A program made the position numbers and the translations under genes. 64,000 nucleotides of DNA from Curtobacterium sp. SGAir0471 (GTDB taxonomy: Bacteria; Actinomycetota; Actinomycetes; Actinomycetales; Microbacteriaceae): the NCBI RefSeq assembly GCF_005490985.1, contig NZ_CP027869.1, forward strand, positions 62,001 through 126,000, in the 5' to 3' direction. Below the pieces are notes generated by a model. That model was not told the DNA's origin. It worked only from the letters and a program-made list of their open reading frames with translations, and did not search any database. Below are positions 33,714 to 42,099 of this stretch, in pieces; within the stretch, counting starts at the first letter, position 1, and each line of letters begins with the position of its first letter.

Positions 33714-34316
33714 GTGGGGAACGTCGTCGTCGTGCAGGCCGGGGATCCGCGGCGGGAGCGCCTCGAACGCGAGGGGTGGTCGGTCACCGCTCGGTCGTTC
33801 GGTGCGCAACTCGAAGCCGAGCGTCTTGACGTCGACCGGCTGACCGCGTTCATTTCCGCGATCGATCCGGCACTCGTGTTCCGCCCGCTCGGAGCCCACG
33901 ACGTCGACGCGGTGCTCGCCCTCGACCGACTGACGGCGGACGACTACCCGGGCAGCGTCGCGACCCGGCACGAACAGATGGACCGCGACGCGGCCACCCC
34001 CACCGCGGTCCGCCGCGCCTCCGGAGTGTTCGCTGCCGATGGGTCGCTCGTCGCGATGACCTACGTCGAGGTCGACGGAGCCGACGCCGAGACGGACTTC
34101 ACCGTGGTCCACCCGATGCACCGCGGTCGGGGGATCGGCACGGCGCTCAAGGCCTGGTCGGTCCTGGCGTTGCAGCGCGAGGGTGTGCGGCGCTTCCGCA
34201 CGGGAGGGTCCGCCGACAACGTCGCGATCCGGCGTGCGAACGCTGCGCTCGGGTACGTGCAGGACGAGGAGTGGGTCACGCTGACGGCTCCGGACAGCGC
34301 CGACACGGGCACGTAG
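33714..34316 (+). CDS. GNAT-family N-acetyltransferase (intact copy)
   Basis: A 200-aa acetyltransferase. The acetyl-CoA loop is in HPMHRGRGIGTALKAW (R/Q-x-x-G-x-G/A) and the final strand region NVAIRRANAALGYVQDEEW is normal. The N-terminal 60 residues are a separate, less conserved segment. Its last 380 bases fall within the left 437-bp repeat and recur at 39999-40378. Immediately downstream, a copy of the start of the His-rich small gene is broken by the island. Confidence 0.88.
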   Translation: MGNVVVVQAGDPRRERLEREGWSVTARSFGAQLEAERLDVDRLTAFISAIDPALVFRPLGAHDVDAVLALDRLTADDYPGSVATRHEQMDRDAATPTAVRRASGVFAADGSLVAMTYVEVDGADAETDFTVVHPMHRGRGIGTALKAWSVLALQREGVRRFRTGGSADNVAIRRANAALGYVQDEEWVTLTAPDSADTGT

Positions 34317-34373
34317 GCTCCAGGTGAGAACCGATCTCACGATGACGGACCATGTCGGAACCGAGCACCACCC
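33937..34373 (+). repeat. Left 437-bp direct repeat flanking the island
   Basis: Collinear with 39999-40435 without gaps, about 93% identical by eye. It spans the GNAT acetyl-CoA domain, the stop, a small inverted repeat (GTGAGA and TCTCAC at 34324-34340, also at 40386-40402) and the first bases of the small His-rich gene, which then diverges. Confidence 0.9.
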
Positions 34374-34535
34374 ACAGATCAGCGGCGCGCTCCGAGCCTT
34401 CTTCACATGCCGAACCGGACGCAACAGCGTCTCGAGGATCGGTCTGTCAACGGACGGTGTCAGCCTCGGTAGTCGGACCGCCAGCGGAATCGGCACCACG
34501 ATCGTCGCCCTGTCCCGCTGCGGCAGAGTGGATGC

Positions 34536-34874
34536 ATGGTCAGTGCCACACCCAACACGATCCACTTCCACCGCAAGCACCACGAAGCGATCATGTCCGG
34601 CGAGAAGGTCACCACCGTTCGGTGGAACGAGGACGTACCGGTGGGAGCAGCCGTGTTCGTCTTCGACGAACACCCGACCGCAAGCCCGGTCCCCGGCACT
34701 GTGATCGCCGTGCGCCGGTACCGGCTCGACGCCCTCACCGCTGAACAAGCCCACCAGCCGCCCGAGACCGACATGGAGCTCTTCGCCCAGCAGCTCCGCG
34801 AGAACTACTACCCCGACATGCCGTCCGACGCAGTTGTCGAGGTTGCTCGACTTGCAATCAAGACGTCCCACTAG
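34536..34874 (+). CDS. ASCH/PUA-like domain protein
   Basis: A 112-aa protein. HRKHHEAIMSGEKVTTVRWN is the ASCH entry (basic residue, Lys/Thr and Arg around a possible nucleic-acid or nucleoside pocket), followed by VFVFDEHP and GTVIAVRRYRLDAL strands and a C-terminal helix (ELFAQQLRENYYPDMPSDA). ASCH proteins bind RNA or act on modified nucleosides such as N4-acetylcytidine. ATG 34536 follows CAGAGT at 6 nt. It is the first gene of the island. Confidence 0.75.
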   Translation: MVSATPNTIHFHRKHHEAIMSGEKVTTVRWNEDVPVGAAVFVFDEHPTASPVPGTVIAVRRYRLDALTAEQAHQPPETDMELFAQQLRENYYPDMPSDAVVEVARLAIKTSH

Positions 34875-34913
34875 CCGATCGGCTACAGGAACAGGTGTCG
34901 GCGGTGCGTGCGT

Positions 34914-34919
34914 GAGAAT
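34914..34919 (+). promoter_or_regulatory. -10-like hexamer of the Imm8-like gene
   Basis: GAGAAT lies 6 nt before GTG 34926. Confidence 0.45.
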
Positions 34920-34925
34920 GACGCC

Positions 34926-35282
34926 GTGAAGGCTCAGGTGAGGTTCATCTCGACGAATGACGGTGAAGACCTCGAGGGCGTTGTGCTCGAGGATCCAGAC
35001 GACGTCGACATCTGGATCACCGTCATGGCCGGCCCGGTGGACGGGCCGGGACAAGAGTCTTTCCAACTGCGGGTTCGCAGCCCCCTCTCATTGACGAGGG
35101 AGCTGAACCAGTGGGGCCCGCTCCGCGAGCGCCACATGATCGTCGTGGCCAAGTGGGACCCGCAGCAGATCCGATCCTTCATCAACCGGCTCTTCACTGA
35201 GGCGGAGGGACGGGACTGGAACGAGGTCGGCGAGAAGCTCAGCCGGTTGGGGTACTGGGAGTTCGAGGACTACAAGCCCTGA
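34926..35282 (+). CDS. Immunity protein 8-like (orphan)
   Basis: A 118-aa acidic protein. The pattern ESFQLRVRSPLSL in the middle, RHMIVVAKWDPQQIRSFI after it and the end WNEVGEKLSRLGYWEFEDY match what is known of the Imm8 family of polymorphic-toxin immunity proteins (SFxLxVxTPxxL, then the EVxxKLxRxGxWEFEDY tail). Imm proteins neutralise toxins delivered by rival bacteria. No toxin gene is nearby, so this would be an orphan immunity gene. GTG 34926 is chosen from the promoter hexamer; in-frame GTG 34908 is an alternative. Confidence 0.6.
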   Translation: MKAQVRFISTNDGEDLEGVVLEDPDDVDIWITVMAGPVDGPGQESFQLRVRSPLSLTRELNQWGPLRERHMIVVAKWDPQQIRSFINRLFTEAEGRDWNEVGEKLSRLGYWEFEDYKP

Positions 35283-35408
35283 TCAGTCGGTGCAGGAAGC
35301 GACAGCATCAGGAGCACCCGCTCCCGTCCGGTAGCCGATCGGGCCTCGTTTGCACCACTGAACAACAGTGGGCGTTGCTTGCAGAATGTCACGGTGAGGA
35401 GGAAGTCG

Positions 35409-35795
35409 ATGCGTGAGAGCGACGAGTGGGTCGTCCGCGTCTTCGTCGATCACGGCGCAACCCCGGTCTGGTACGGCGGTCCCCGCGACTACGACGAGAT
35501 GCATGTGTCGCCGGATCTCGAGCGCGACCTACAGGTGTTCGACGATTGGTACTACGACGCGGAAGACCCGCTTGAGCAGTACGCGGTCCGTTCGAACGTC
35601 CGGCATGACTTCGAGCGCGAGGGAGAACGTCTCGCGCAGGCTCTCGCGAAGGAACTCGGTGCGCCGTTCTCGGTCACCGTGATCCATCCGGGGGATCGCT
35701 CGGGATCCCGCACCTACCGGTCCCCGGTAGCTGCGACGAATCCCCGAGCCCACGCTGCCTTCATCGCCATCCACGATGAGGACCTCAGAACTTGA
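35409..35795 (+). CDS. Hypothetical island protein
   Basis: A 128-aa soluble protein that I do not recognise. It is rich in Asp, Glu, Tyr and Trp (WYGGPRDYDEMHVSP, FDDWYYDAEDP) with a central charged helix (VRHDFEREGERLAQALAKEL) and no signal or membrane segment. A strong GAGGAGGA ribosome site lies 5 nt before ATG 35409, unlike its leaderless neighbours. Composition and position next to an Imm8-like gene would fit another immunity protein, but that is a guess. Confidence 0.6.
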   Translation: MRESDEWVVRVFVDHGATPVWYGGPRDYDEMHVSPDLERDLQVFDDWYYDAEDPLEQYAVRSNVRHDFEREGERLAQALAKELGAPFSVTVIHPGDRSGSRTYRSPVAATNPRAHAAFIAIHDEDLRT

Positions 35796-36073
35796 CCGGT
35801 GGAGGATCCCCAACCGAGACGTTCGCAGCGGCGTGCACCCATCCGAAACCCCACCTTCGTTGAACTGCTTGCGCCAGCGGGCGCCCGAGTTGATGAGCCC
35901 GTCGAGGTCACCGACGAACACCGCGCCCGGGTTTTGACCTCGTGCCCAGCGATGGTCCGCCGCGAGCTGGGGCGGGGAGTCATGTTTTGTACGCAATAGA
36001 GCCGATAGTCGAGGATTCGCCAGCATGACCACTAGCCTCAACCCAGCTCTCACCCCTGCTGCTTTGGAGAACT
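35796..36073. other. Intergenic, no gene recognised
   Basis: 278 bp between the hypothetical gene and the ATPase gene. Short overlapping frames exist on both strands without recognisable sequence. Probably holds the promoter of the defence-like pair and remnants of older insertions; a TGGAGA ribosome site precedes GTG 36074. Confidence 0.5.
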
Positions 36074-38419
36074 GTGACGACGGCCAAGATCACCCGCATC
36101 CGCAAGGTCCATGACTATCGCGTCTTCCAGCGATGGAGCGATGATAGGCGCGCGGATGACTTCGCCCGCGTCAACTTGCTCTACGGCACCAACGGCAGCG
36201 GGAAGAGCACCCTAGCAAGTCTGCTGCGGTCCTGCGCCGCTTCAAACGCCGAAGCGGCGCGTGCCCAGATCGAGGTCGTAGCGTCCATCGACGGCACCGA
36301 GCACGTTGTGACGCACGACAACACGGCCCTTTGGAACCGCGTTCGAGTTTTCAACGCTGAGTACGTCGATGAGAACCTCCGCTTCAATGACCGTCAGGGC
36401 CCACGCTCCGACAGCCTCCTGACGCTCGGCAAGGCGAACGTCGAAGCGGAACTCGAGCTGCAAGCGGCAGAGCGTCGCCGGGTAGAGGTGGAACCCCAGG
36501 CCACGGACGCCCGCGCGGCAGCCAGAACAGCCGAGACCAACATGGGGCGACGGATGACCGAGGTCGCCGGCCAGGTCGTCGAGGACCTCCGCATGTCCCC
36601 TGTTGCCACCTATCGCGCTACGAACACCTACACACGAAGAAACGTACGCGACTTGCTGGTTGGAGACCGATCGCTCTTCGACTCGGCGTCCGTTGACATC
36701 GCCGCCGACCGCGCATTGGCTACATCGAGCGCACCCCGCTCCTACACGCGACTGTTTCGAGGGGAATTGCCCCGTGCCGACGAGATTCTTCGCAACTCGG
36801 TCGCGCTCTTGGAAGCCGACGTCATCTCGCGACCGCTCGCGCGTCTTGCTGACCATCCCGCTGAGGCCCAGTGGGTGCAGCGAGGCCTGCCGCTCCACGA
36901 GCACGAAAGCCGATGCTTGTTCTGCGGCAACGAGATCTCGACCCAGCGCCGGGAGGAGCTGGCCGCACACTTCGACCGGTCCGTGACAGATTTGCAAGCC
37001 CGCATCGACGCGCAACTCGATGTTCTGAAACAATGCGAGCATGCTGCGGCTCGTCTCGCTGAGAGTGTGCCCGGCGATGGCGATCTGTATGCCGACCTGG
37101 CCGGAGCGTTGCGAACCGCACGCAGCGAGGTGCAAAGCCAGGTAGACAACTACCAGCAGCTGCTCTCAGAGCTTGGGATGCGCCTCGAAGCCAAGCGCTC
37201 GAATCCGTTCTCCAAGCCCGAACCCAATGTCGCTGCTCCGGAAACACCGACCGCAGATTCCGTTGCGGAGGTCATCGCTCTACACGAAGCGCGTCGTTCG
37301 GCGCACGAGACAGAAGCGTCGTCAGCCGCTCGCAGAGTCGAGCTGGCCAGGGTGAAGGCCTTTGCTGATGAGTATGACCGGCTCGTAACCTCCGCTCGCG
37401 ATCTCAGTCAGACGGCGACCTCTCTCGAGGACGAACTACGTGAACTCAACCAGAGAATCATCGCACTCAGCAGTGTCGATGCCGACCCAGTCCCTCAAGC
37501 GACCGAGCTCACCGAGAGCGTCGCTCGATTGCTCGGGCGTACCGAGCTGGCTTTCGCCCCGAGCGATGACGGGAAACACTACAAGATCGAGCGGTCGGGT
37601 CTGCCAGCCACCAACTTGAGCGAAGGAGAGCGGACTGCGATCGCGCTCCTGCACTTTCTCGCAAGCATTCGCGAAGGTGTCTTCACTGTCGACGCACCCA
37701 TCGTCGTGATCGACGATCCGGTCTCGAGCATGGACGAGGGCATCCTCTTCGGAATCTCGTCTTTCCTCTGGTCCTCCCTCGTAGAGAACGCCTACGCCAA
37801 CCAGGTCTTCCTATTCACGCACAACTTCGAGTTGTTCCGACAGTGGGTCGTCCAGCTCGAAGCCGCGCGGAGACACGTCAACGGCGGGTATACGGTTCAT
37901 GAAATCCGTATGCGCCATCGGCGTGGAGGATCCAATGCACCCCGTCGTTCACCCGAATTCGATCCCTGGACCCCTGACCGCCAGCAGTCCAGCCGACTTC
38001 GCTCGCTCTACCACTTCCTGTTCGCGCGGGTAGCAGCTGCGGTCATCGACTCGAAACCCGACCTCGGCCTCGCCGAGCGCATGGATCTCCTCGCCCTCGC
38101 CCCCAACGCCGCGCGAAAGATGCTGGAGGCGTTCCTAAGCTTCCGCTTCCCGCAATACATCGGACAATTCCACCTCGGCATGAAGGAGGCGATCAAAGAA
38201 GTCGATGACCCTGCCCTCCGCACGCACGTCGAACGCTACCTGCACGCCTACTCCCACAACGAGGAAGGGAACGTCTCGGCAATGATCGATCCGAGTGAGG
38301 CCACAGCTGTGCTCAGATCGCTCTTCCTGCTGATCCGCGCAAATGATCCGGGGCACCTGTCGGCGATGTGCATGGCGCTCGGCATCAACGAAACCGAGCT
38401 CTTCGCACTCGAGTATTGA
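36074..38419 (+). CDS. AAA_13/RloC-like SMC-type ATPase (putative defence)
   Basis: A 781-aa ATPase split by a long coiled-coil insert. Walker A is GTNGSGKST (38-46), the signature LSEGER (515-520), Walker B VVIDDP (544-549) and the switch His lies in FTHNFELFRQW (583). Residues 121-160, 300-365 and 400-470 are coiled-coil-like, with a CLFCGNE pair (Cys281, Cys284) at the turn, as in the zinc-hook region of RloC-type proteins. The C-terminal domain carries RKMLEAF (Arg681, Glu685) and RYLHAYSHN (His728), residues resembling the Arg-x3-Glu...His arrangement of PrrC/RloC anticodon nucleases. Likely an infection-sensing ATPase with or without its own nuclease. It is followed by an AbiJ-like gene. 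Confidence 0.85.
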   Translation: MTTAKITRIRKVHDYRVFQRWSDDRRADDFARVNLLYGTNGSGKSTLASLLRSCAASNAEAARAQIEVVASIDGTEHVVTHDNTALWNRVRVFNAEYVDENLRFNDRQGPRSDSLLTLGKANVEAELELQAAERRRVEVEPQATDARAAARTAETNMGRRMTEVAGQVVEDLRMSPVATYRATNTYTRRNVRDLLVGDRSLFDSASVDIAADRALATSSAPRSYTRLFRGELPRADEILRNSVALLEADVISRPLARLADHPAEAQWVQRGLPLHEHESRCLFCGNEISTQRREELAAHFDRSVTDLQARIDAQLDVLKQCEHAAARLAESVPGDGDLYADLAGALRTARSEVQSQVDNYQQLLSELGMRLEAKRSNPFSKPEPNVAAPETPTADSVAEVIALHEARRSAHETEASSAARRVELARVKAFADEYDRLVTSARDLSQTATSLEDELRELNQRIIALSSVDADPVPQATELTESVARLLGRTELAFAPSDDGKHYKIERSGLPATNLSEGERTAIALLHFLASIREGVFTVDAPIVVIDDPVSSMDEGILFGISSFLWSSLVENAYANQVFLFTHNFELFRQWVVQLEAARRHVNGGYTVHEIRMRHRRGGSNAPRRSPEFDPWTPDRQQSSRLRSLYHFLFARVAAAVIDSKPDLGLAERMDLLALAPNAARKMLEAFLSFRFPQYIGQFHLGMKEAIKEVDDPALRTHVERYLHAYSHNEEGNVSAMIDPSEATAVLRSLFLLIRANDPGHLSAMCMALGINETELFALEY

Positions 38420-38559
38420 TTTGCCGAAGAGTGTCTGACTGCGGCCCTGACGTGTTCAGGCGCCGCTGACCTTTCTCGTCGGGCGACCTCCGGACGTTCA
38501 AATCCTCCCCAGCTTCCACGGGTGTGGAGCTCCATGACGACTTCATCGGTGGGTACCAG

Positions 38560-38565
38560 TAGCCT
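38560..38565 (+). promoter_or_regulatory. -10-like hexamer of the AbiJ-like gene
   Basis: TAGCCT lies 6 nt before ATG 38572, so this gene can be transcribed separately from the upstream ATPase. Confidence 0.5.
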
Positions 38566-38571
38566 GACAAC

Positions 38572-39438
38572 ATGGCCACCTTCGCTGAGCGTATGGGCAA
38601 GCGAGCCCCCAGGACGATCATCCAGACTGACGCCCTCGATGTCGAAACCCGTACGGAGCTCTGGAACGTGCTGGTGGTCCTGCAGGATATCTTCGATAGA
38701 GCTCGAGAACGGGACTACAACGGGACCGTCGAAGCCCAGGTGGTCGACGCCATCTGGACACAGGAATTCAAAAAGCCTCGTGACGAGATGCCAACTCGAG
38801 CCTTTGTATGGCAGCGTGTCAAAACGCTTGTCCTGGAGGGAGAGTGGTTCGATGCCCTAGATCTCATCGAAGCTCTAGTTCGATATATCGGCCGCTACGA
38901 GGACTGGACAACTGCGGATCTGCAAAGCGCGATGAGAGACGCGTTCAACGAACGATTTGAGCGCTATCTTCTCGGCTACCGCTTCGTCGGCGGAGAGATC
39001 ACGCCAATAGCCACGTCAGCCGAAGCCGCGGCGGTCGACGAAGCCATCACTGCCGTGACACCCATCGCCGGCGCACGCCATGCTCTCGAGCGGGCGACCG
39101 AGCTGCTCGCCGATCGAGAGTATCCGGACTACCCCAATTCGATTAAAGAATCGATATCTGCTGTGGAGTCCGTGGTCACGTACCTCACCGGCAAAGGAGA
39201 GCTCGGGAAAGGTCTCGGACTGCTCGAATCCGCGGGAATCAGAATACACCCGGCACTTAAAGGTGCTTGGCTCAAGATGTACGGCTGGGCGTCAGATGAC
39301 GATGGCATCCGACATGGCAGTATCGAGGCTGCGGATGCGGATCAAGCCCTTGCGAGGTATGTGCTCGTTACATCCTCAGCTTTCGTCTCATATCTGATCG
39401 AAGAGCGGTCAAAGGCCGGCGAGCTAGCGGCGGAATGA
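38572..39438 (+). CDS. AbiJ-NTD4/HEPN-like abortive-infection protein
   Basis: A 288-aa protein. Residues 1-105 (FAERMGKRAPRTIIQTDALD, LRTELWNVL-like helix) match the AbiJ N-terminal domain 4; residues 165-275 form a HEPN-like helical domain: RHALERATELLADREYPDYP, SIKESISAVESVVTYLTG, then HPALKGAWLKMYGWASDDDG with the conserved Arg247-His248. HEPN domains often act as RNases in abortive infection. It lies 152 bp after the AAA_13 gene on the same strand. The pair looks like a two-gene phage-defence module in which the ATPase senses and this protein executes; that division of labour is inferred. Confidence 0.8.
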   Translation: MATFAERMGKRAPRTIIQTDALDVETRTELWNVLVVLQDIFDRARERDYNGTVEAQVVDAIWTQEFKKPRDEMPTRAFVWQRVKTLVLEGEWFDALDLIEALVRYIGRYEDWTTADLQSAMRDAFNERFERYLLGYRFVGGEITPIATSAEAAAVDEAITAVTPIAGARHALERATELLADREYPDYPNSIKESISAVESVVTYLTGKGELGKGLGLLESAGIRIHPALKGAWLKMYGWASDDDGIRHGSIEAADADQALARYVLVTSSAFVSYLIEERSKAGELAAE

Positions 39439-39998
39439 TTGCAGCGATTTCGTCGAGGCACCCTAACTAGCGACAGCTTCTTATCACCGCGACAACGCAA
39501 GAGAACGGTGCGCGGGTAGTTGGTATAGTCCGTCGACCCAGTAGCGAGCAGTCGGCGCCCGGCGCCCGGCGCCTGTCCGCCGGCCTCGTGCGCGTTCCGA
39601 TCCGGCTGGCTCATGTGGCCTTGGTTGAATACGCCGTGACGGTTGGCCTCCCTGGCTGGTCGGCTGGCTCTCTTGAACGCCTGCGCCAGGACGTGCCATC
39701 CGCAGCCCACGGTTTGCCAGACGGGCTCAAATGGTTCCAACCTGTCTCGCCAGCCGGTCCACCAGGAGGCACCGGGGTACTTGCGAGGGCTTCGGACTCT
39801 GACGGCCCGGCTCTGGAGCGAGCCCCGTCTCACATGGGTGGTCCGCGAACCATCTCAGTTCACGTACGCCATTCGGACGCCTCCTGATGCAGGAGAGGTG
39901 AGCTGGGCGCCAGTCGGCAAGGCTGCTCCGCGATGCCGAACAACGTGTCCACATCCGCGTTTCGGGCGCGTTGGATGGCAGAAGGACAAGTCGGCTGG
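39439..39998. other. Island right end, no gene recognised
   Basis: 560 bp after the AbiJ-like gene with short frames on both strands but no recognisable protein, tRNA or inverted repeat. A GGCGCCC triplication (about 39555-39575) is the only structure seen. It runs into the right direct repeat and may be debris of earlier exchanges. Confidence 0.5.
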
Positions 39999-40378
39999 CG
40001 GACGACTACCCGGGCAGCGTCGCTACCCGGCACGAACAACTGGACCGCGATGCGGCGACCCCCACCGCGGTCCGTCGCGCCTCCGGGGCGTTCGCTGCCG
40101 ACGGGCCGCTCGTCGCGATGACCTACGTCGAGGTCGACGGAGCCGACGCCGAGACGGACTTCACCGTGGTCCACCCGACTCAGCGCGGTCGGGGGATCGG
40201 CACGGCGCTCGAGGCTTGGTCGGTCCTGGCGTTGCAGCGCGAGGGCGTGCGTCGCTTCCGCACGGGAGGGTCCGCCGACAACGTCGCGATCCAGCGGGCG
40301 GACGCTGTGCTCGGGTACGTGCAGGACGAGGAGTGGGTCACGCTGACGGCCCCGGACAGCGTCGACGCGGGGACGTAG
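39999..40378 (+). pseudogene. Truncated GNAT acetyltransferase copy
   Basis: The last ~126 codons of the acetyltransferase at 33714-34316, with the acetyl-CoA loop (HPTQRGRGIGTALEAW) and C-terminus intact but the first ~75 residues missing. In-frame codons upstream from 39971 (MDGRRTSRLA) come from unrelated sequence, so a fusion could be translated, but no promoter or ribosome site supports it. Confidence 0.85.
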
Positions 40379-40435
40379 GCTCCAGGTGAGAACCGATCTC
40401 ACGAGGAGGAACCATGTCGGACCCGAACACCACCC
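39999..40435 (+). repeat. Right 437-bp direct repeat flanking the island
   Basis: The counterpart of 33937-34373. It contains the 3' part of a GNAT gene and the intact start of the small His-rich gene. The roughly 28 differences in 437 bp mean the two copies did not arise by very recent duplication. Confidence 0.9.
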
Positions 40436-40602
40436 CTGCCGCCGAGGCCGAGGAGCACCGCGTCGCCGAGCACGACGTCGCTGACCACGACCACGAGCAG
40501 GACGGCGGCGAGCACGAGACCGTCGAGCACGGCGACCACGTCGACTTCGTGCACGACGGCCACCGCCACGCGCGTCACGAGGACCACTATGACGAGCACT
40601 GA
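40414..40602 (+). CDS. Small His/acidic-rich protein, possible metal buffer
   Basis: A 62-aa protein made almost only of His, Asp, Glu and small residues (EHRVAEHDVADHDHEQDGGE, then GHRHARHEDHYDEH). It has 14 His and over 20 acidic residues, no Cys and no hydrophobic core. Such a chain could bind Ni, Zn or Cu, but no metal gene is adjacent. A GAGGAGG ribosome site precedes ATG 40414. The broken copy of its start is at 34352, showing that the GNAT and this gene were ancestrally adjacent. Confidence 0.75.
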   Translation: MSDPNTTPAAEAEEHRVAEHDVADHDHEQDGGEHETVEHGDHVDFVHDGHRHARHEDHYDEH

Positions 40603-40625
40603 GCGTCGCTGACGCGACCGATGGC

Positions 40626-40667
40626 GGCCGGGAGGGACGTGGCGGAGCAGCCACGGGCCTCCCGGCC
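40626..40667. terminator. 18-bp imperfect hairpin of the GGGAGGC family
   Basis: The arms 40626-40643 and 40650-40667 pair at 16 of 18 positions around a 6-nt loop. The core GGGAGG..CGTGGC matches the element at 6655-6696. It follows the His-rich gene and precedes the next acetyltransferase. Confidence 0.7.
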
Positions 40668-40692
40668 GGCGTCCCTACGGTCTCGCACCTCC

Positions 40693-40698
40693 TACGCT
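40693..40698 (+). promoter_or_regulatory. -10-like hexamer of the second GNAT gene
   Basis: TACGCT lies 6 nt before ATG 40705. Confidence 0.55.
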
Positions 40699-40704
40699 GG
40701 CCGC

Positions 40705-41217
40705 ATGGCGACGATCATCCGCACCGCGCGGTCGAGCGACGCGGACGCCGTCCAGCGGATCGAGGACGATGCCGACCAGCTGCTGATCGATCGCCTCCAC
40801 CCCGAGGTCTGGTCTCCGGCTCCACACGGCAGTGCACGGCTTTCGGAGCCCGGCTTCCTGCTCGTGGCCGACGTCGACGGCGAGGTCGCCGGCTTCGTGC
40901 ACGTCCTCGAGGTGGAGCGCGTCTGCCACCTGGAGCAGCTCTCGGTCCGACCGTCGCGGGCGCGGCGGGGCCTCGGGCGAGCGCTCGTGGAATCGGCGAA
41001 GGACCGCGCGCATGTTCGCGGCCACGATCGCATCTCCCTCCGCACCTACGCGGACATTCCCTGGAACGCACCGTTCTACGCCACGGCCGGCTTCGCCGAG
41101 GAGGAACCGGTCACGTGCTTCCACCGGTCCCTGCTCGAGGTCGAGGCACAGCACGGCCTGGACCGGTACGGGCGCCGGGTGCAGATGAGCGCACCGCTCG
41201 GTGCATCCCGTCCGTAG
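40705..41217 (+). CDS. GNAT-family N-acetyltransferase
   Basis: A 170-aa acetyltransferase, unrelated in detail to the one at 33714. The acetyl-CoA loop reads RARRGLGRALVESA, preceded by the VCHLEQLSVRP strand, and the final segment is WNAPFYATAGFAEEEPV. It resembles small-molecule or RimI-like N-acetyltransferases; the substrate is unknown. The ATG at 40705 is chosen because the leaderless hexamer lies just upstream and open frame before it has no family sequence. Confidence 0.88.
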   Translation: MATIIRTARSSDADAVQRIEDDADQLLIDRLHPEVWSPAPHGSARLSEPGFLLVADVDGEVAGFVHVLEVERVCHLEQLSVRPSRARRGLGRALVESAKDRAHVRGHDRISLRTYADIPWNAPFYATAGFAEEEPVTCFHRSLLEVEAQHGLDRYGRRVQMSAPLGASRP

Positions 41218-41241
41218 GAGCGTCCGCGGGGCCGAGGAGGC

Positions 41242-42099
41242 CTACGGGTGCCGGGTGCCCTCGCCGGCCAGCACGGCGCGGTAGCCCTCGCGGAAGGTCG
41301 GGTAGTGCGGCTCCCAGCCGGTCGACCGGATCAGGGCGTTCGACAGCCGCTTGTCCCCGCCGGCCTGCCGACCCTCGGGCTCGGCGGTCGGCGGCCGCTC
41401 GACGCCGAGCTCGTCGGCCAGGAACGCCAGGACGTCGTCGAGACGGGCCGGTTCGTCGTCGGTGCCGAGGTACGTCGGTGCGGGATCGTCGATGCCCGCG
41501 AGGTGCACGAGTGCTTCCGCGGCGTCGTCCCGGTGGATGCGGTTGGTGTGCGGTGAGGTGCCGGACGACAGCCGGGCCTGCCCGGACCGGACCTGGTCGA
41601 TCAGACGTTCACGCCCCGGCCCGTAGATGCCGGAGAGCCGGACGAGCACGGCACCGGGCGCCCGGTCGCGCAGCAGCGCCTCGGCCTCGAGCAGGACACC
41701 CGCGGTCGGGGTGCCCGCGTTCGCCGGGGTCTCCTCCGTGACCTCGCTGCCGTCCTCGAGGTCGTACACCGCGGTCGACGACACGACGATCACGCGCGGC
41801 GACGCACCGGACGCGTCGATGCCCTCGAGCACGTTCCGCAGGCCGTCGACGTAGGTCGCGCGGTACTCGTCGACGTCGCGGGAGCCGGCGGCGAACGCCA
41901 CCACGACGACCCCCGTGTGCGCGTCGATCGACGGCACCTCGCGCCGGAGGTCGACGCTCCGCCCCGTGATCGGGGACGGGACCAGCTCGGCGCGACGGCG
42001 GAGTCCGGTGACCGGGTGGCCGAGCGCCGCGAAGCGCAGGCCGGCCTCGGAGCCGAGGTCGCCGCAACCGGCGATGACGACGGGGGAGCGGTGCTGCAT
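41242..42099 (-). CDS. NAD-dependent epimerase/dehydratase (YeeZ-like)
   Basis: A 285-aa extended-SDR protein. The dinucleotide loop is VIAGCGDLGSEAGLRFA (GxGDxG variant), followed by VVVSSTAVYDLED and RLSGIYGPGRERL, where the usual Tyr-x3-Lys is not evident. This is the atypical SDR subgroup of E. coli YeeZ with no confirmed reaction. ATG 42099 is the first start. It is convergent with the GNAT gene. Confidence 0.85.
   Translation of the reverse strand: MQHRSPVVIAGCGDLGSEAGLRFAALGHPVTGLRRRAELVPSPITGRSVDLRREVPSIDAHTGVVVVAFAAGSRDVDEYRATYVDGLRNVLEGIDASGASPRVIVVSSTAVYDLEDGSEVTEETPANAGTPTAGVLLEAEALLRDRAPGAVLVRLSGIYGPGRERLIDQVRSGQARLSSGTSPHTNRIHRDDAAEALVHLAGIDDPAPTYLGTDDEPARLDDVLAFLADELGVERPPTAEPEGRQAGGDKRLSNALIRSTGWEPHYPTFREGYRAVLAGEGTRHP

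Follow-up and report, generated by a model that had tools for sequence, protein, structure and literature searches.

RloC, described from G. kaustophilus and A. baylyi, is a wobble nucleotide-excising anticodon nuclease of 658–897 amino acids (aa) whose active site is defined as a triad, Arg-x3-Glu-x36-52-His, often with a Ser preceding the His (PMC2610378). The A. baylyi enzyme is activated by DNA-break inducers: its internal switch is described as a putative DNA-break sensor with a coupled ATPase, and tRNA is disrupted after breaks (PMC3874168). AbiJ proteins carry AbiJ-NTD4 fused to a HEPN domain (PMC3710099). In one paper (PMC12322248), an S. thermophilus system called AbiJ stands under no activity and RloC is given as not tested. 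Here we analyzed two adjacent genes, encoding an AAA_13 ATPase and an AbiJ-NTD4 protein, within a window of 64,000 nt from Curtobacterium sp. SGAir0471 (contig NZ_CP027869.1, positions 62,001 to 126,000), whose genome is a single contig of 3.53 Mb. An original prediction had read the pair as a two-gene defence module with an ATPase sensor and a HEPN RNase effector. Our analysis indicates instead that the genes are probably anti-phage candidates that stand alone, each independent of the other, and happen to lie in one acquired cargo island.

The RloC-type ATPase

Both open reading frames (ORFs) are intact and co-oriented (Table 1). The ATPase matches Pfam AAA_13 (E 3.3e-116) and, over its full length (residues 5–767 of 781), the PADLOC model PDC-S06 (E 1.2e-130). 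All ABC motifs of RloC are present: besides Walker A, the protein carries the signature SEGE (516–519), the Walker B/D-loop DDPVSSMD (547–554), and the switch histidine TH (582–583), with key residues invariant in the 25 rows of the alignment. In the predicted model, long helices (120–172, 302–330, 340–376, and 395–466) form a coiled-coil insert that splits the ATPase and contains the CxxC motif. The original prediction of a complete, RloC-like AAA_13 ATPase with a CxxC and a Walker A lysine at position 44 was therefore borne out.

What it had overlooked is a RloC-type nuclease triad at the C-terminus, R681-x3-E685-x42-H728 with Ser at 727. A pattern search of 12 other S06-type ORFs recovered the triad in 9 and missed it in three (L028, L030, and L060). 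From its sequence, the ATPase is a complete RloC-type protein: a Rad50-like ABC head, a CxxC coiled coil, and a C-terminal triad, within the RloC size range. Unlike RloC, this predicted nuclease has no adjoining restriction genes, the island proteins searched being an ASCH protein, an Imm8 protein, a protein of no assigned family, and the pair itself. PDC-S06 is only a catalogue name, and PMC11811056 counts it among candidates whose protein sets DefenseFinder names as another system; this remark is consistent with, and not proof of, PDC-S06 being RloC.

A reading of the ATPase as nothing more than a Rad50/SMC sensor was rejected on account of its own triad. Sequence and profile searches of the PDB returned ATPase-domain matches to TAP1, SMC, Rad50, and AriA, and PHROGs returned phrog_2801 (function unknown); an initial scan of species genomes, for which this ATPase sequence alone was the query, gave zero relatives.

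Because the RloC literature describes such a switch (PMC3874168), we propose that a DNA-break or infection signal would cause the Rad50-like ABC head, with its zinc-hook coiled coil, to release the C-terminal anticodon nuclease, which would then cut tRNA and halt translation. The trigger could also be mainly DNA damage rather than phage, in which case the island would be general stress and competition cargo. The activation of A. baylyi RloC by DNA-break inducers and the presence of Imm8 and ASCH genes within the island speak for this possibility, which we nevertheless consider unlikely: some S06-like genes are carried by viral contigs and some adjoin genes for type I restriction subunits, a distribution fitting defence.

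Co-occurrence of the two families

The check put forward with the original prediction, co-occurrence across genomes, was carried out with E <= 1e-30 as a strong match and E <= 0.001 as the weak threshold. In the family sample (398 genomes), strong matches to PDC-S32, the PADLOC model matched by the AbiJ-NTD4 protein, were found in 8 genomes and to PDC-S06 in 24, and both were found only in the source genome. From these strong counts, about 0.4 joint genomes besides the source would be expected by chance, and 7 if the pair were obligate. At the weak threshold the counts rose to 15 and 49. The order sample (396 genomes, overlapping the family sample) gave strong counts of 3 (PDC-S32) and 21 (PDC-S06), again with the source genome alone in common. 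A PDC-S32 gene was also present in another genome of the same genus (G105).

Gene neighbourhoods provided consistent evidence. An S06-like gene lay near PDC-S32 in 1 of 89 S32-centred loci (87 of them distinct, many on short contigs), PDC-S32 lay near S06 in 0 of 11 S06-centred loci, and the two families were together in 0 of 64 viral-contig loci (40 S32 and 24 S06, with flanks up to 6 kb). A conserved two-gene system was accordingly rejected by the lack of co-occurrence in the family, order, locus, and viral sets. Each family also occurs separately, and the pair is best read as coincidental neighbours.

It is true that the genes are adjacent, on the same strand, and in the same low-G+C island, and that systems with an ATPase sensor and a separate nuclease exist. 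The ATPase has weak profile matches to AriA of PARIS (E 8.8e-9) and LmuB of Lamassu (E 4e-14), both also among the Foldseek matches. PARIS follows an ATPase-plus-nuclease logic like the one first pictured here; its effector AriB, however, is a Toprim nuclease (PMC12409363), whereas the neighbour here is HEPN-like. A single system, with the ATPase detecting infection and switching on the AbiJ/HEPN protein as its RNase effector, nonetheless seems very improbable. The ATPase carries a complete anticodon-nuclease triad, so a separate RNase effector is unneeded, and the Curtobacterium phage Barebow has PDC-S32 without the ATPase, Barebow not being among the listed matches of the ATPase search in the phage collection. 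PADLOC, in turn, lists both genes as separate single-gene candidates: the original claim that these are defence-type genes stands, and each is a further member of a catalogued family.

Several observations weigh against reading the two genes as independent. One further joint genome, G373, appeared at the weak threshold; its PDC-S06 match is weak (E 5e-19), and its PDC-S32 gene lies on another contig. The single positive locus, L060 from Pseudomonas, has an AAA_13 protein about 2.5 kb from the PDC-S32 gene on the opposite strand. Contig ends or flanks of 6–10 kb cut many loci: in L022, which among the readable loci holds the S06 relative most similar to ours (59%), the sequence stops about 500 bases past the ATPase, and the nearest relatives of both genes lie on metagenome contigs outside the loci compared. 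These metagenome relatives are P0080 at 97%, P0081 at 86%, and P0002–P0004 at 83–84%. The 152-nt gap and shared strand would permit co-transcription, and no terminator was predicted between the genes on their strand, in a promoter and terminator scan that was itself uninformative (1 and 5 sites versus 0.8 and 3.2 in shuffles). Finally, residues 636–777 of the ATPase are mostly helical in the predicted model, but the whole-model fold search spanned residues 2–650; no HEPN match for the C-terminus was among the fold matches listed, which is no sign of absence.

The AbiJ-NTD4 protein and the PDC-S32 family

The second protein matches AbiJ_NTD4 (PF18863; E 6.7e-25, 88.8 bits against a cutoff of 34) and, over its full length (residues 1–279 of 288), PDC-S32 (E 1.2e-85). 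Its C-terminus is predicted to be a HEPN-like helical domain, as in the AbiJ family, and the domain architecture originally assigned to this protein was thereby confirmed. So were the two residues singled out at the outset: across the PDC-S32 alignment, R247 is kept in 123 of 123 sequences and H248 in 122 of 123. The canonical Rx4-6H motif, which PMC3710099 (its Table 1) lists as conserved in AbiJ, is absent from the second protein, and the C-terminal segment has it in 3 of the 123 aligned sequences. Because an R-H dyad stands in its place, the protein was filed as PDC-S32/AbiJ-NTD4 and not as a canonical HEPN RNase. Against the STM4504/CBY_0614 family model it scored only 13 bits (cutoff 150). 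Foldseek with the predicted model gave no match at E <= 0.001, the PDB sequence and profile search gave nothing convincing, and PHROGs gave no match.

By analogy with what PMC3710099 proposes for Abi systems in general, the AbiJ-NTD4 domain may sense infection and restrain the HEPN-like domain, which might cut RNA via the R247-H248 dyad. A different role would be that of a local silencer or co-regulator of RloC in a recent, lineage-specific pairing, as EcoprrI is for PrrC. A linked partner does silence PrrC (PMC2610378), and the two genes here are co-oriented; RloC, however, has an internal switch (PMC3874168), and the near-invariant dyad points to an enzyme more than to a protein that silences passively. 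A common partner gene is likewise absent near either family. Near PDC-S32, recurrence peaks at 8 of 127 loci, and this largest group has one identified member, a phage baseplate protein; near S06, a recurrent neighbour family reaches at most 5 loci, its two identified members being type I restriction proteins. We consider a silencer role very improbable as well.

The PDC-S32 neighbours were also tallied by family. The tally covered 124 of 163 selected genome-locus neighbours (39 were left out, 16 of them mostly short), with long neighbours cut to 450 aa and those above 1100 aa or more than 1.5 kb away excluded. Among the first 25 families, the top ones (integrase, mad3, and mad8) reached 3 of 124 each, and restriction and TIR families 1 or 2.

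Returning to PDC-S32 as a stand-alone candidate, one species-genome scan yielded 469 relatives. In Barebow (PQ868957.1), a temperate phage with a tyrosine integrase, a relative with 42.5% identity, gene 17, is flanked by gene 16 and the integrase. Barebow also has a gene annotated as a cyclic nucleotide sequestering protein, so that this phage of 18 kb possibly combines defence with counter-defence. Tentatively, PDC-S32 could be a widespread stand-alone anti-phage family in which an R-H dyad, facing a conserved N-S-x-K-E-S...V-E helix, replaces Rx4-6H to form a distinct RNase or nucleotide-acting site; Barebow and other temperate phages would account for part of its spread. The literature matches listed included no functional work on PDC-S06, PDC-S32, or AbiJ-NTD4 proteins.

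Other placements vary. In L076 (8792–13983), the PDC-S32 gene is inserted between the type I restriction genes hsdS and hsdR, resembling PrrC/RloC genes, which are sometimes found within restriction operons; an S06-type gene adjoins hsdR in L025 and L169. Four Acinetobacter species (L078, L082, L084, and L102) have PDC-S32 immediately downstream of related genes of 943 aa, of which the one identified, in L078, has UvrA domains; this arrangement suggests that the insertions share a chromosomal site. In L021 (6097–7866), a SIR2-domain gene is 88 nt away from an S06-type ATPase gene, and on viral contig L171 a relative of that SIR2-domain gene lies 724 nt from an S06-type gene.

The cargo island

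The pair's stretch has a G+C content of about 60–65%, against about 70–75% on either side. At third codon positions (GC3), values are 0.735 for the ATPase gene, 0.639 for the AbiJ-NTD4 gene, 0.78–0.86 in the three other island genes, and 0.86–0.96 in six flanking genes or gene pieces. The island is bounded by direct repeats of about 440 nt, offset by 6062 nt and about 93% identical. Matching flanks of an empty site were found only in L113 among 15 congener regions around acetyltransferase relatives, the other 14 matching the acetyltransferase alone. The gene order in L113 is phosphofructokinase-like, a 356-aa gene, a single acetyltransferase, and epimerase-like (the outer names being ones we presume from the sequence), and the island genes are unmatched there. 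The low G+C, island position, and horizontal acquisition first proposed for the pair thus held up. The arrangement is consistent with homologous recombination of incoming DNA that bore part of the same acetyltransferase (GNAT) gene, which would leave the island between one full and one 5'-truncated copy. Neither a toxin family nor a recombinase was found among the five island proteins searched.

Table 1. Coordinates of the features discussed, in positions of the window unless a locus is named.
Feature	Position	Strand	Basis
RloC-type ABC ATPase / predicted anticodon nuclease, 781 aa	36074..38419	+	GTG start; PADLOC PDC-S06; Pfam AAA_13
Walker A GTNGSGKS, residues 38–45 (K44)	36185..36208	+	G38, G43, K44 invariant in 25 alignment rows
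CxxC zinc-hook motif CLFC, residues 281–284, within coiled-coil insert	36914..36925	+	C281, C284 invariant in 25 rows
Predicted anticodon-nuclease triad R681-x3-E685-x42-H728, Ser at 727	38114..38257	+	Triad invariant in 25 rows; RloC definition in PMC2610378
AbiJ-NTD4 protein with HEPN-like C-terminal domain, 288 aa	38572..39438	+	ATG start; PADLOC PDC-S32
R247-H248 dyad codons, candidate active site of HEPN-like domain	39310..39315	+	Conservation in 123 aligned sequences
Left direct repeat (approximate ends): 3' part of acetyltransferase (GNAT) gene and first codons of small downstream ORF	33938..34374	+	
Right direct repeat (approximate ends): 5'-truncated second copy of same GNAT gene	40000..40436	+	
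Inserted low-G+C island between repeats	34375..39999	.	Absent from congener locus L113
ASCH-domain protein, island cargo	34536..34874	+	PF04266, E 5.1e-5
Imm8 immunity protein, island cargo	34908..35282	+	PF15586, E 1.6e-27
138-aa protein, island cargo	35379..35795	+	No family match
Barebow PDC-S32 gene beside integrase	L112 13469-14386		
Barebow cyclic nucleotide sequestering protein gene	L112 3104-3373		

The Imm8 gene is possibly an acquired orphan immunity gene, and the 138-aa ORF is perhaps likewise. Beyond the right repeat, L113 lacks most of a second acetyltransferase gene (40621–41214), similarity breaking off at 40674 and resuming at 41242; the gap at 40675–41241 is a second small insertion or deletion.

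Taken together, these results correct a tempting two-component reading: the ATPase already has a predicted nuclease of its own, and its neighbour is a separate candidate. As a system, the pair is ordinary. The locus illustrates how defence genes can build up at one spot through insertion that leaves direct repeats of a partial gene. The active site of PDC-S32 is a more interesting lead than the pairing: this is a common family with a sharply conserved, non-canonical HEPN-like site.
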